This document shows, piece by piece, positions 12,788 to 15,644 of a stretch of 33,050 nt of DNA. The notes below the pieces were generated by a model that ran no database searches, was not told the origin of the DNA, and saw only the letters and a list, made by a program, of their open reading frames with translations. This DNA comes from Bacteroidota bacterium (GTDB lineage Bacteria; Bacteroidota; Bacteroidia; Bacteroidales; UBA5342): contig QKHT01000096.1 of NCBI GenBank assembly GCA_003249935.1, positions 1 to 33,050 on the forward strand, read 5' to 3'. The position numbers were made by a program, and so were the translations under genes. The first letter of the stretch is position 1. Each line of letters opens with the position of its first letter.

Positions 12788-13543
12788 TCAGAGTCTTACC
12801 ACAATACCACGCTCGTGCAAGTAAGCCTTGAGCTCGGGAATTCCAATCTCTTTGTAGTGAAATATACTTGCGGCCAGACCCGCATCAGCCTTACCAATTG
12901 TAAACGTATCATAAAAATGTTCCATAGTACCGGCTCCACCCGAAGCAATAATCGGAATGGAGAGCGACTCGGAAAGCATACACAAAGCATTGTTGGCAAA
13001 ACCACCTTTGGTTCCATCGTGATTCATACTTGTAAAGAGAATTTCTCCAGCACCCCGGTTCTCAGCCTCTTTTGCCCAACTAAACAACTCCTTATCGGTA
13101 GGAATACGGCCACCATTAACAGTAACAGTCCAACAATCGTTTGCCAATCGGGCATCAATGGCACAAACTACAAACTGTTTACCAAAATTGAGTGCCAAAT
13201 CATTAATTAGATTGGGGTTTCTAACCGCAGCCGAATTAACCGACACCTTGTCGGCTCCAGCACTCAACAACGCATCGGCATCGGCAATTTCGGTTACGCC
13301 ACCCCCCACTGTAAAGGGGATATTAATATTTCGCGCAATACGCCTAACAAGATCAACGAGCGTTTTACGCTTTTCGTGCGAAGCAGTAATATCAAGAAAC
13401 ACCAGTTCGTCGGCCCCTTGTTCGGCATATAATGCACCTAACTCAACCGGATCGCCAACAGCCTTAATTTCCACAAAATTAACACCTTTAACCGTTTGCC
13501 CATCTTTAATATCAAGACAAGGAATAATTCGTTTTGCTAACAT
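12788..13543 (-). CDS. hisF: Imidazole glycerol phosphate synthase cyclase subunit HisF
   Basis: Uses ammonia delivered by HisH to convert PRFAR to imidazole glycerol phosphate and AICAR. The TIM barrel of 251 residues has the catalytic Asp in IPCLDIKDG and the second Asp in VVCAIDAR. Phosphate-binding motifs are VGGGVTEI and [12 protein letters not shown], and [11 protein letters not shown] is also present. Its partner hisH and the related barrel hisA are upstream, but two unrelated genes lie between hisA and hisF. The start overlaps the DUF3307 gene's stop by 7 bp, which points to translational coupling. hisIE, often next, is absent; lplA follows instead. Confidence 0.97.
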
Positions 13544-14232
13544 TTCGATAAATATTTAATGGCCAATCCAGTAAAAATGGCAAATGAAAAACTAAGCAAA
13601 GTTCCCAACAACAAATATTCCGACAACTTTTGCTGATCTTTTTGAGTGTCACTGAACCGATAGACCGATTTGGCTGCAACCAAAAAACCAATTGCAGTAT
13701 ATTGATTAATAAGAACAAACACCAGAATAAGGCAACGCTCTATTATGCCAATAGTAAAACCAGCACTTGGCATGCCTGCAAAATTTTCTGAGCCAAAAAC
13801 CGACAAAACAACCTTTCGAACAGCAATAGCAGCCGGTCGTCCTACAACAAGAAATCCCAAAAGATAAAGCTCCGGATTAAACGAAATAATCAGATTAACT
13901 TCATCTTGATCTATAAATAATGCTAATAATATTACAGACACTACATGAACCACCTGATCGGCAAAAAAAAGCACCACAGAATCGGTAAAAAGAGCCTTAA
14001 TTCCATCGACACACAAATGAATAATAAACATAACCGGAAAAACCCACCACAAAGTTACATTAAAGAGAAACAACCATGACAAAACCCCAACAATTAAAGC
14101 ATGTTTGTACAAATCGGCCGAAAAAAAACCTCCATCAGCTTTGTTTTCTGCCATTTTACACGACTGAAAATAAAAATCGCTCACAACATGCGCCAACAAT
14201 AAGCGGATAACAGTTACAATAAGTGCATTCAT
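13537..14232 (-). CDS. DUF3307-family polytopic membrane protein
   Basis: A 231-residue, very hydrophobic protein with about six or seven membrane helices. The family pattern is visible in the first half: [10 protein letters not shown] (H15, D19), KHALIV (H44), IHLCVDGIK (H72, D76) and FADQVVHVV (D92, H96). His and Asp residues therefore line predicted helices, which is reminiscent of a buried metal or catalytic site. GIIERCLI and AAKSVYRF follow in the second half. Function unknown. It lies 3 bp after the SatD-like gene and overlaps hisF by 7 bp. Pairing of SatD-type proteins with DUF3307 proteins fits what I know of these families, so it is probably the membrane partner or effector of its neighbour. 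Confidence 0.8.
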
Positions 14233-14235
14233 TTA

Positions 14236-14850
14236 CTAAACAGCGTTAGATTCTACAACATTTAAAACCGCCAAAAATGACCTGAAGCCGACCGAATGTA
14301 AAACCTTACTTACTGCCGGCTGAGAGATCCCCAATTTTTGAGCAATCTCTTTTTGGCTAAGCCCCTTTAAAGCAAGCGAAAGCACTTTCGCCTGCCCCGG
14401 TTTAATATCCCTGATAAAATCGTCGAAAAGCTGAACCATAGCATTAAGTTGCGGGGATTGATATTCGCCCTTACTAAAAACAAAAGTCCGATCCATGCCC
14501 TTCATTGTATCAAGATTTCTGCCCGAGATAGTGAATGGTTCGCCATCCGATTCGCGTACTGTATTTTTGTTAAGATCTGTTTGGCCAACTCCAATACTTA
14601 CGCGGATATCAAAACCTGCACCCAAACCTTTCGCTATCATTTTTAATATAAGAGCATTACGAAACCCCATCCGATCGTTACACGCTAATTGAAACCCATC
14701 TCCCCTAAAAAATTCGAGCGGTAGCTTTACACCGTTCAGTTGGTCCGCTTCATACTTCAAAGTATGGCGTATTTCCGAAAGTTGCTCATTATTCAACTTC
14801 GACGACCAGATGATGTCTCCGGTAATGACAGAATATTTTGCTTCCATCAT
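14236..14850 (-). CDS. SatD-like protein with C-terminal HTH domain
   Basis: A 204-residue soluble protein. The N-terminal part (about 6-130) has SatD-family motifs: YSVITGDIIWSS (D12), EFFRGDGFQLAC (D51) and DIRVSIGVGQTD (81-92). Their order and spacing resemble the metal-Asp strand, the GDG hairpin and the RIGIH-G strand of class III nucleotide cyclases. Cyclase activity is my inference. The C-terminal part (about 150-190) is a LuxR/sigma-4-like helix-turn-helix, LSQKEIAQKLGISQPAVSKV, so the protein probably binds DNA. Its promoter is overlaid by inverted repeats, suggesting autoregulation. First gene of a pair with the DUF3307 membrane protein. Start ATG at 14848-14850; a second ATG follows directly. 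Confidence 0.78.
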   Translation of the reverse strand: MMEAKYSVITGDIIWSSKLNNEQLSEIRHTLKYEADQLNGVKLPLEFFRGDGFQLACNDRMGFRNALILKMIAKGLGAGFDIRVSIGVGQTDLNKNTVRESDGEPFTISGRNLDTMKGMDRTFVFSKGEYQSPQLNAMVQLFDDFIRDIKPGQAKVLSLALKGLSQKEIAQKLGISQPAVSKVLHSVGFRSFLAVLNVVESNAV

Positions 14851-14851
14851 A

Positions 14852-14882
14852 CAAATATAACTCTTTTTTGTTATATTTCAAT
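14852..14882 (-). promoter_or_regulatory. Promoter of the SatD-like/DUF3307 module
   Basis: Minus strand: ATTG (14879-14882), 19-nt spacer, TATATTTG (14852-14859). One mismatch in the -33 box, none in the -7 box. The -7 box ends only 1 bp before the ATG, so the transcript should start at or inside the start codon and be leaderless. The inverted repeat 14853-14878 covers the -7 box and spacer. Confidence 0.6.
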
Positions 14883-14936
14883 ATTATAATATTTTTAGGT
14901 TATATTTTTTACTTATAACCTATTATTGTTATATTT
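14853..14936. repeat. Operator-like repeats: inverted pair plus three 29-bp-phased GTTATATTT copies
   Basis: GTTATATTT occurs on the plus strand at 14870-14878, 14899-14907 and 14928-14936, exactly 29 bp apart. Its complement AAATATAAC at 14853-14861 makes a perfect 9-bp inverted repeat with the first copy (8-bp gap). A second inverted pair, GGTTATA (14898-14904) and TATAACC (14914-14920), surrounds the second copy. The third copy lies inside the 3' end of hisA. The likely ligand is the HTH of the adjacent SatD-like protein (inference). Confidence 0.6.
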
Positions 14937-15644
14937 TTCGAGCTGATTCTTTGTAATCCGTCCTTCATATATTGCCTTTCCAACAATTACAGCAGGAACA
15001 CCCATCTCATCAAGTTTTTCGATATCCTCCATACAACTTATTCCACCACTGGCAATAAGATACAAATCGGGCAATTTGCTCAAAATAGACCCATAAAGTT
15101 CGAACGATGGCCCCTCTAACATGCCATCTTTACTAATATCAGTCGAAATTACCTTGTCGACACCCAGATGCACATAATCACTAATAAAATCCATCACATC
15201 ATGGTCCGAACTTTCGAGCCAGCCTGTTACGGCAATTTTGCCATTATGGGTATCGGCACCGAGAATAATTTTCTCTGAACCGAATATTTCGAGCCAACGA
15301 ACAAATATTTCCGGATTTTTTACAGCGATACTGCCTCCGGTAACCATTGAGGCACCACATTCAAACGCTATTTGCAAATCATTATCGCTTTTTAAACCAC
15401 CACCAAAATCAATCACCAGATTAGTTTTGGTCGCAATGGTTTCAAGTGTTTTCCAATTAACAATATGACTGGCTTTTGCGCCGTCGAGATCGACAAGGTG
15501 TAACCGCATAATACCAGCATCCTGAAATTCCAATGCCACATCGAGCGGATTAGAAGCATACACTTTCTGCGTATTGTAATCGCCTTTACTTAACCTTACA
15601 CATTTACCTTCAATAATGTCAATTGCCGGAATAATTTCTATCAT
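14913..15644 (-). CDS. hisA: ProFAR isomerase HisA
   Basis: Phosphoribosylformimino-AICAR-phosphate ribotide isomerase, an Amadori rearrangement in histidine synthesis. The 243-residue TIM barrel has the catalytic Asp in [14 protein letters not shown] and the second in [14 protein letters not shown]. Phosphate sites are [11 protein letters not shown] and [14 protein letters not shown] chose ATG 15642-15644 (MIEIIPAID). A longer in-frame start would overlap hisH and add 36 unrelated residues. The hisH stop is 1 bp upstream. The last codons (YNNNRL) run through the operator-like repeats of the next gene, so that regulatory region overlaps coding sequence. Confidence 0.97.

Follow-up and report, generated by a model that had tools for sequence, protein, structure and literature searches.

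The window analysed here, a stretch of 33,050 nucleotides from a member of the Bacteroidota, carries on its minus strand hisA, an array of inverted repeats, a gene for a SatD-like protein, a DUF3307 gene and hisF, in this order. The features are listed below.

14913..15644, minus strand: hisA, the upstream neighbour, with the distal dyad in its 3' end
14914..14933, minus strand: distal putative operator dyad TATAAC-AATAATAG-GTTATA, perfect, within the last codons and stop of hisA
14885..14904, minus strand: middle putative operator dyad TATAAC-CTAAAAAT-ATTATA, one mismatch in the right half
14879..14882, minus strand: putative -33-like element ATTG, read from the sequence
14856..14875, minus strand: proximal putative operator dyad TATAAC-AAAAAAGA-GTTATA, perfect, between the -33-like and -7-like boxes
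14852..14859, minus strand: putative -7-like element TATATTTG, read from the sequence
14236..14850, minus strand: SatD-like putative regulator, class III nucleotidyl cyclase fold (about residues 1-130) with a C-terminal HTH, as predicted
13537..14232, minus strand: DUF3307 membrane protein (predicted), usual partner and presumed target
12788..13543, minus strand: hisF, the downstream neighbour

The dyad array and its surroundings

A first-pass annotation of this DNA had pointed to a 9-mer, GTTATATTT, repeated in exact 29-bp steps with an inverted copy nearby, and these repeats are all present (plus-strand starts at 14870, 14899 and 14928; inverted copy at 14853-14861). The repeats are therefore real, but the unit is not the 9-mer, which makes up one half of each element; it is a 20-bp dyad, TATAAC-N8-GTTATA when read on the minus (gene) strand, which occurs three times with a period of exactly 29 bp. 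In total, 35 of the 36 core letters match the dyad consensus, the sole misfit lying in the middle dyad. The inverted pair GGTTATA (14898-14904)/TATAACC (14914-14920), which had been placed around the middle 9-mer, does not surround it, as that 9-mer occupies 14899-14907; the pair consists of the distal dyad's right half standing opposite the middle dyad's left half. The overlap of the third copy with the end of hisA did hold, since the distal dyad lies inside the final hisA codons (..YNNNRL-stop, compared with ..NIHK in the same-family genome G001). The proposed promoter, ATTG-N19-TATATTTG, was likewise found as a candidate at 14882-14879/14859-14852; its two parts resemble the -33 and -7 elements of the Bacteroidota promoter consensus. 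The right half of the proximal dyad has TATA in common with the -7-like box.

The AT-rich composition of the region had raised the question of chance, for which a shuffle test had been suggested. At fixed geometry (dyad length 20, period 28/29), none of 3000 dinucleotide shuffles reached the three-dyad score of 35/36 (maximum 28), and with the period (20-40) and the dyad length (14-26) left free, none of 60 equalled it, which excludes chance. The two-dyad score was less impressive, the value of 33 in the window being reached by 22 of 725 pooled shuffles. The 9-mer itself occurs five times in the whole window against 1.14 expected, and 2 of 100 shuffles contained at least five copies. A search of the organism's own genome (4.27 Mb, 326 contigs) located perfect dyads at two places, both within the array, and a single instance of AAATATAAC/GTTATATTT as an inverted pair with a gap of 2-30. 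Dyads with one mismatch occur at 15 places elsewhere, including two close pairs (44 and 22 bp) and none at a distance of 28/29, while those with up to two mismatches occur at 256 places, compared with 622 for a reversed control pattern. The idea of a genome-wide regulon was dropped because perfect dyads are confined to this array. Another dyad, TATAACTCAAGTGAGTTATC, is identical on two contigs of the genome (C289, 3028-3069; C25, 15212-15231), and its C289 copy has a near copy at 22 bp. An Rfam search of the window gave no match.

The position of the array relative to the gene depends on which of two consecutive ATG codons (14850 and 14847) is used, the array ending 5 nt from the first and 8 nt from the second. 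In the family, arrays most often end 8 nt before the ATG (16 of 77 genes), which makes the second ATG a possible true start; together with the -7-like box, such a start would predict a nearly leaderless mRNA.

Next, the neighbouring his genes were compared with those of eight other genomes having a hisA match. In four of these, hisF adjoins hisA (9, 3, 20 and -6 bp in L249, L253, L255 and L256), in two (L250 and L251) other sequence lies in between, and in the remaining two hisF was absent from the fetched piece around hisA. The same-family genomes G001 and G002 gave no SatD match, and in a same-family genome without a detected SatD homologue hisA and hisF are 9 bp apart. Because of this adjacency elsewhere and the lack of a SatD match in G001 and G002, the SatD-like/DUF3307 pair looks to have been inserted, together with its putative operator, at the hisA-hisF junction. 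The stop of the DUF3307 gene overlaps the start of hisF (13537-13543), which may make expression of hisF dependent on the inserted pair.

Conservation of the array and its association with DUF3307

The alignment of regions upstream of SatD-HTH genes in relatives had also been proposed as a check. A SatD match at E ≤ 0.001 was found in 60 of 393 order-level genomes, the nearest being 40% identical, and a profile search at class level was positive for 72 of 395 genomes, many with weak HTH-only matches; named genomes were also scanned, and of 572 relatives the best 80 were kept. The weakest matches of the first homologue collection were left out, L001-L003 and L052 were skipped, and L044 had no tblastn match. 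The upstream set further omits L073 and L081 (no ATG found), seven duplicates, L053 and L156 (same genomes as L034 and the window) and L056 and L130 (short upstream region), while L240-L247 stand outside the analysed set. With duplicates and incomplete loci removed, the scan covered 145 upstream regions, and neither the dyad length (12-30) nor the period (18-45) was fixed. As controls, upstream regions of ORFs from the same loci were used, 353 of which were reduced to 231 by requiring an AT content of at least 0.62. The best period was 28 or 29 in 126 of the 145 SatD upstream regions compared with 17 of the 231 controls, and a score of at least 32 (a cut-off picked after the scores were seen) at these periods was reached by 114 of 145 compared with 0 of 231. 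The commonest dyad length was 20. When whole loci were scanned (147 loci, 752 kb; dyad length 20, score at least 33), 279 hit positions, which overlap and hence are not independent, fell at 28/29, while twelve other periods gave two in total; in 89 loci the 28/29 hits lay within 200 bp upstream of satD. Thus, the spacing is widely kept among the relatives, but the half-site letters are not; as described below, they covary with the recognition helix.

The two periods differ in a simple way: the 6-nt half-sites alternate evenly at 14 bp in 28-bp arrays, and in 29-bp arrays the distance is 14 inside a dyad and 15 between dyads. Because the inside-dyad distance stays at 14 in both classes, TAT..ATA appears to form a rigid unit. 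The possibility that a TTTG in each spacer serves as the -33 box of a next, tandem promoter was rejected, the enrichment being too weak (internal spacers 27% vs inner N8 7% in the 28 class; 25% vs 10% in the 29 class). Arrays also vary in extent and position. One locus (L160) holds about 12 copies at 29 bp from about -407 to -39 relative to satD, as counted by spacing, and second 29-bp arrays away from the satD promoter were seen in L155 (-1479), L158 (+1370) and L046 (-222).

A DUF3307 gene follows the SatD gene in 138 of the 145 cases, and one further locus with an array (L025) has a truncated DUF3307 remnant, read by eye. The six homologues without DUF3307 (L014, L016, L018, L021, L026 and L036) had no array; five of them (all except L036) have GE instead of GD at the first metal Asp. 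On the other hand, 25 of the 145 genes have DUF3307 and no array over the cut-off upstream of satD. Seven of these (L005, L007 and L009-L013), once regarded as array-less, turned out to carry the array some 650-700 bp past the start of satD, at or within the 120-219 bp that separate satD from DUF3307, and 11 of the other 18 peak at 28/29 below the cut-off. What by eye is an ABC-F ATPase gene precedes satD in L005, L007, L009 and L011-L013, but not in L010.

Sampling was then based on DUF3307 itself, a family found in 77 of 296 genomes of the phylum; 62 loci were analysed and 15 genomes left out. SatD lies upstream in 58 of these 62 loci (the first set already contained 9 of the 58 proteins), and 38 of the 58 have 28/29 arrays, 35 upstream of satD and 3 in the satD-DUF3307 gap, leaving 20 without an array over the cut-off. 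None of the four DUF3307 loci without a recognised SatD had one. Among the 14 loci with a gap of at least 99 bp, three have gap arrays over the cut-off and four more peak at 29 below it. Taken together, the SatD-based and DUF3307-based samples hold ten long-gap loci (seven and three) with the array in the satD-DUF3307 gap, which makes the DUF3307 membrane-protein gene or its transcription unit the apparent constant target. Because the array goes with this unit, it would be auto-regulatory only where satD comes first in the unit, as in the window.

The same geometry extends beyond the Bacteroidota. Among plasmid records, the best period was 28/29 in 7 of 12 loci, five with a score of at least 32. 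Within the Gammaproteobacteria, period 28 was found in Vibrio, two Pseudoalteromonas and two Salinivibrio loci (the Salinivibrio score being 29), and the haloarchaeal plasmids of Natronosalvus and Halorientalis have dyad length 20 and period 29 with half-sites TACAAC and GTTCGC, the GTTCGC array lying in a region of 54% GC. For Vibrio, one Pseudoalteromonas and both archaea, none of 1000 shuffles each reached the score at fixed geometry. Bacteroidota and haloarchaea thus share the geometry, although the letters drift across lineages. DUF3307 is the next gene in Halorientalis, and the neighbour genes in Natronosalvus and Arthrobacter had no Pfam match. No array was found in the Fusobacterium, Aerococcus, Arthrobacter and Sphingomonas loci, and the one in Segatella was seen by eye only. 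The Salinivibrio pairs (L261 and L262) sit behind an ABC-F ATPase gene, and the SatD-DUF3307 pair on a Sphingomonas plasmid (L260, 3375-3878) adjoins a gene for PycTM, a Pycsar effector. A phage origin was rejected after tblastn of phage records matched neither window protein, and the SatD-like protein was not found among viral contigs by peptide patterns. DUF3307 is nevertheless not foreign to phages, since ORF187 of the Ralstonia jumbo phage RsoM2USA is DUF3307-like according to the gene table in the accessible part of its description (PMC8504454).

Half-site letters and the recognition helix

To describe the letters, half-sites were written as eight positions, outermost first; the consensus is mostly WTATxxxx, and the four inner letters differ between lineages in step with the recognition helix. 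In the SatD-like protein of the window, this helix comprises residues ~177-186. The 114 genes with arrays were dereplicated at 75% identity to 77, in which the similarity of half-sites (letters 2-8) correlated with that of the helix when identity of the cyclase domain was controlled (partial Mantel r 0.497). None of 5000 permutations, in which species were treated as exchangeable apart from the cyclase-domain covariate, reached this value (maximum 0.236). When a 9-residue block was slid along the protein (starts 6-195), the best block was 177-185, i.e., the recognition helix, and the median block gave 0.03.

Two residues carry clear rules in the 77 genes, the window included. N178 goes with C at half-site position 5 (31/31) and P178 with A (9/9); K182 goes with C at position 7 (11/11), Q182 with G (10/10) and G182 with T (20/26). 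The window (P178, K182; ATATAAC) fits both residue rules. The phase rule for half-sites favoured TAT/AAT in letters 2-4, and the residue rules rest on letters 5 and 7 only. In further genes (identical proteins removed, relatives allowed, weak arrays uncounted), the rules for K182 (4/4), Q182 (10/11) and P178 (1/1) were followed, and the one for N178 failed in its single further case (L206, 0/1). Two loci whose proteins are 30-31% identical to that of the window (L233 and L237) share its helix QPAVSK, and their weak, sub-cut-off arrays read TATAAC. Prediction from nearest neighbours was moderate: the nearest helix gave 3.92 of 6 letters, compared with 3.47 for the cyclase-domain neighbour and 3.20 at random, and for the window the nearest helix (L127) predicted 4 of 6, hardly above the 3.85 of random partners. 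These results favour self-binding more strongly than plain conservation would, because the half-site letters change together with the recognition helix.

Two loci are of interest with respect to how such letters differ. L127, from Mariniflexile (helix QDAVSK), has a mixed array with a distal dyad TATCACC/CGTGATA and proximal dyads of TATTCC types, as if its operator letters had been caught in change. The paralogues L041 and L008 of one genome (G166) have different half-sites, AATCAACC and (by eye) AATCAGCC, as expected if private codes avoid cross-talk.

The proteins, the proposed switch and its alternatives

The AlphaFold2 model of the SatD-like protein is confident (mean pLDDT 93), and Foldseek placed it with class III cyclases (4wp9, E 1.7e-5; cUMP synthase 7r65, E 8.5e-5); in a profile search the protein matched 3mr7 (E 7.3e-6). 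On the basis of this model, the protein is a class III cyclase fold with an HTH. D12 and D51, which align with the metal-binding Asp residues of 3mr7, are present in all 77 proteins, so the fold and both metal Asp are shared with class III cyclases such as Ma1120, Rv1264 and the cUMP synthase. In contrast to those enzymes, an HTH is fused to the fold and the transition-state Asn/Arg-like positions are variable: positions 107-111, equated by eye with the catalytic Asn/Arg, vary among the 77, which makes a nucleotide role a guess. The Pfam SatD model (PF16264) spans both domains (residues 6-194) and scores 20.7 bits against the window protein (E 3.4e-4), below the cut-off of 29; it matches 31 of 48 aligned members, and run against the whole own genome it gave no match. 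The SatD loci of Aerococcus and Fusobacterium differ from the window in that no array was found there. A weak structural match (rank 45, E 2.8e-3, TM 0.30) was BAD_0249 (3onq), presumably a member of the PucR/CdaR family, which combines a GGDEF-like palm-fold nucleotide domain and an HTH in one regulator.

The partner passed the gathering cut-off of DUF3307 (PF11750; 69.1 bits vs 23). Its structural model is also confident (pLDDT 93), and neither the structure (best E 0.69) nor the sequence found a relative in the PDB. Among 57 sequences, 17 columns are invariant, including H15, D19, H72, D76, D92, H96, E165 and R166, which suggests a membrane protein whose polar residues resemble those of an enzyme. 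YdjM matched one of the 57 (E 2e-4). The pair resembles Pycsar in that a cyclase-fold gene stands beside a membrane-protein gene, and differs from it in that DUF3307 is not PycTM and SatD carries a putative operator. PADLOC gave no match for DUF3307 and only weak ones, to the HTH part, for the SatD-like protein.

Considering these data together, the array is very probably the operator of the adjacent SatD-like protein, through which that protein would repress its own gene and DUF3307. The first-pass annotation had likewise seen an autorepressor site here; self-binding is supported by the spacing and the helix covariation and is close to certain, while repression, read from the position of the array over the promoter, is likely. 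We propose that one SatD-like dimer would sit on each 20-bp dyad, its recognition helix reading both 6-nt half-sites, and that two to about a dozen dyads at the fixed 28/29-bp period would be filled, probably cooperatively. With the proximal dyad placed between the two promoter boxes, -33-like and -7-like, a dimer bound there should exclude RNA polymerase and hold expression of satD and of DUF3307 behind it at a low level. Binding would then be loosened by a ligand, probably a nucleotide held at the two conserved metal-binding Asp, or by a catalytic state, and DUF3307 would be made; whether a nucleotide signal acts on the protein is, in our judgement, an even bet.

The most serious competitor, which we consider unlikely, is that the array-bound protein acts as an activator, sitting inside the promoter spacer in the manner of MerR. 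It draws on the same location of the proximal dyad, inside the 19-bp spacer, and on many Flavobacterium loci in which the array ends 32-34 nt before the ATG and not at the -7 box. However, a 19-bp spacer is ordinary for Bacteroidota promoters, which leaves no spacer defect to correct, and in 16 of 77 genes the distance from the last dyad to the ATG is exactly 8 nt, which by eye puts the dyad on top of the -7-like box, a position suited to occlusion. Binding by some other cellular protein, with the position beside satD being incidental, is very improbable: no other block tested tracks the half-site letters as well as the recognition helix of the adjacent protein, the homologues without DUF3307 are array-less, and perfect dyads in the genome are unique to this array.

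That the repeats arose by chance or through functionless local tandem duplication is more improbable still. The AT-rich setting and the identical neighbouring copies in some arrays (L033 and L160) would suit this explanation, but the shuffles and the AT-rich controls gave no equal, and a GTTCGC array at 54% GC, in a family whose letters drift while the geometry stays constant, speaks against it. The least probable alternative is a partition site or iteron-like centromere, to which tandem, evenly spaced sites, some of them on plasmids, bear a likeness; most loci examined, however, come from genome contigs and not from plasmid records, and the array is tied to the promoter region of a conserved neighbour, DUF3307.

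Local autoregulation and family-wide recognition codes are already known from the LacI and MerR families. For MerR such a code has reportedly been worked out, and LacI proteins have a fold and sensor domain different from those of the SatD-like protein. According to the accessible part of one report, the local autoregulators of the LacI family have operators beside the regulator gene and a recognition code known family-wide (PMC2978694). The SatD arrays are alike in that base choice follows a few residues of the DNA-binding domain and operators lie beside the gene, but, unlike those of LacI, they comprise 2 to ~12 dyads with a strict 28/29-bp period and appear to have a membrane-protein gene as the constant target. 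As for SatD itself, satD and other sat genes have been linked to acid stress tolerance in S. mutans, and satD is essential in the S. pyogenes strains tested, although only 178 of 249 genomes have it (PMC11323703, accessible part); being both essential and accessory would be expected of a gene that silences a harmful partner. The accessible parts of PMC11323703 and PMC10326533 describe no DNA-binding role of SatD, and in the accessible literature at large, with subscription journals mostly outside it, no SatD DNA binding, DUF3307 pairing or array is described.

Overall, the SatD regulator family gains a precise predicted operator, a partial recognition code (residues 178 and 182) and DUF3307 as its apparent constant target. 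A geometry that is constant from Bacteroidota to haloarchaea despite drifting letters is unusual, and the two-domain design of cyclase fold and HTH is worth solving. More tentatively, DUF3307 may be a harmful membrane enzyme that a cyclase-fold repressor, wrapped along its strictly spaced array, silences until a nucleotide signal arrives. If this doubtful but possible picture were true, SatD-DUF3307 would be a widespread two-gene switch of bacteria and haloarchaea, released by stress or phage attack, and a private operator code for each copy would allow movement between genomes without cross-talk.
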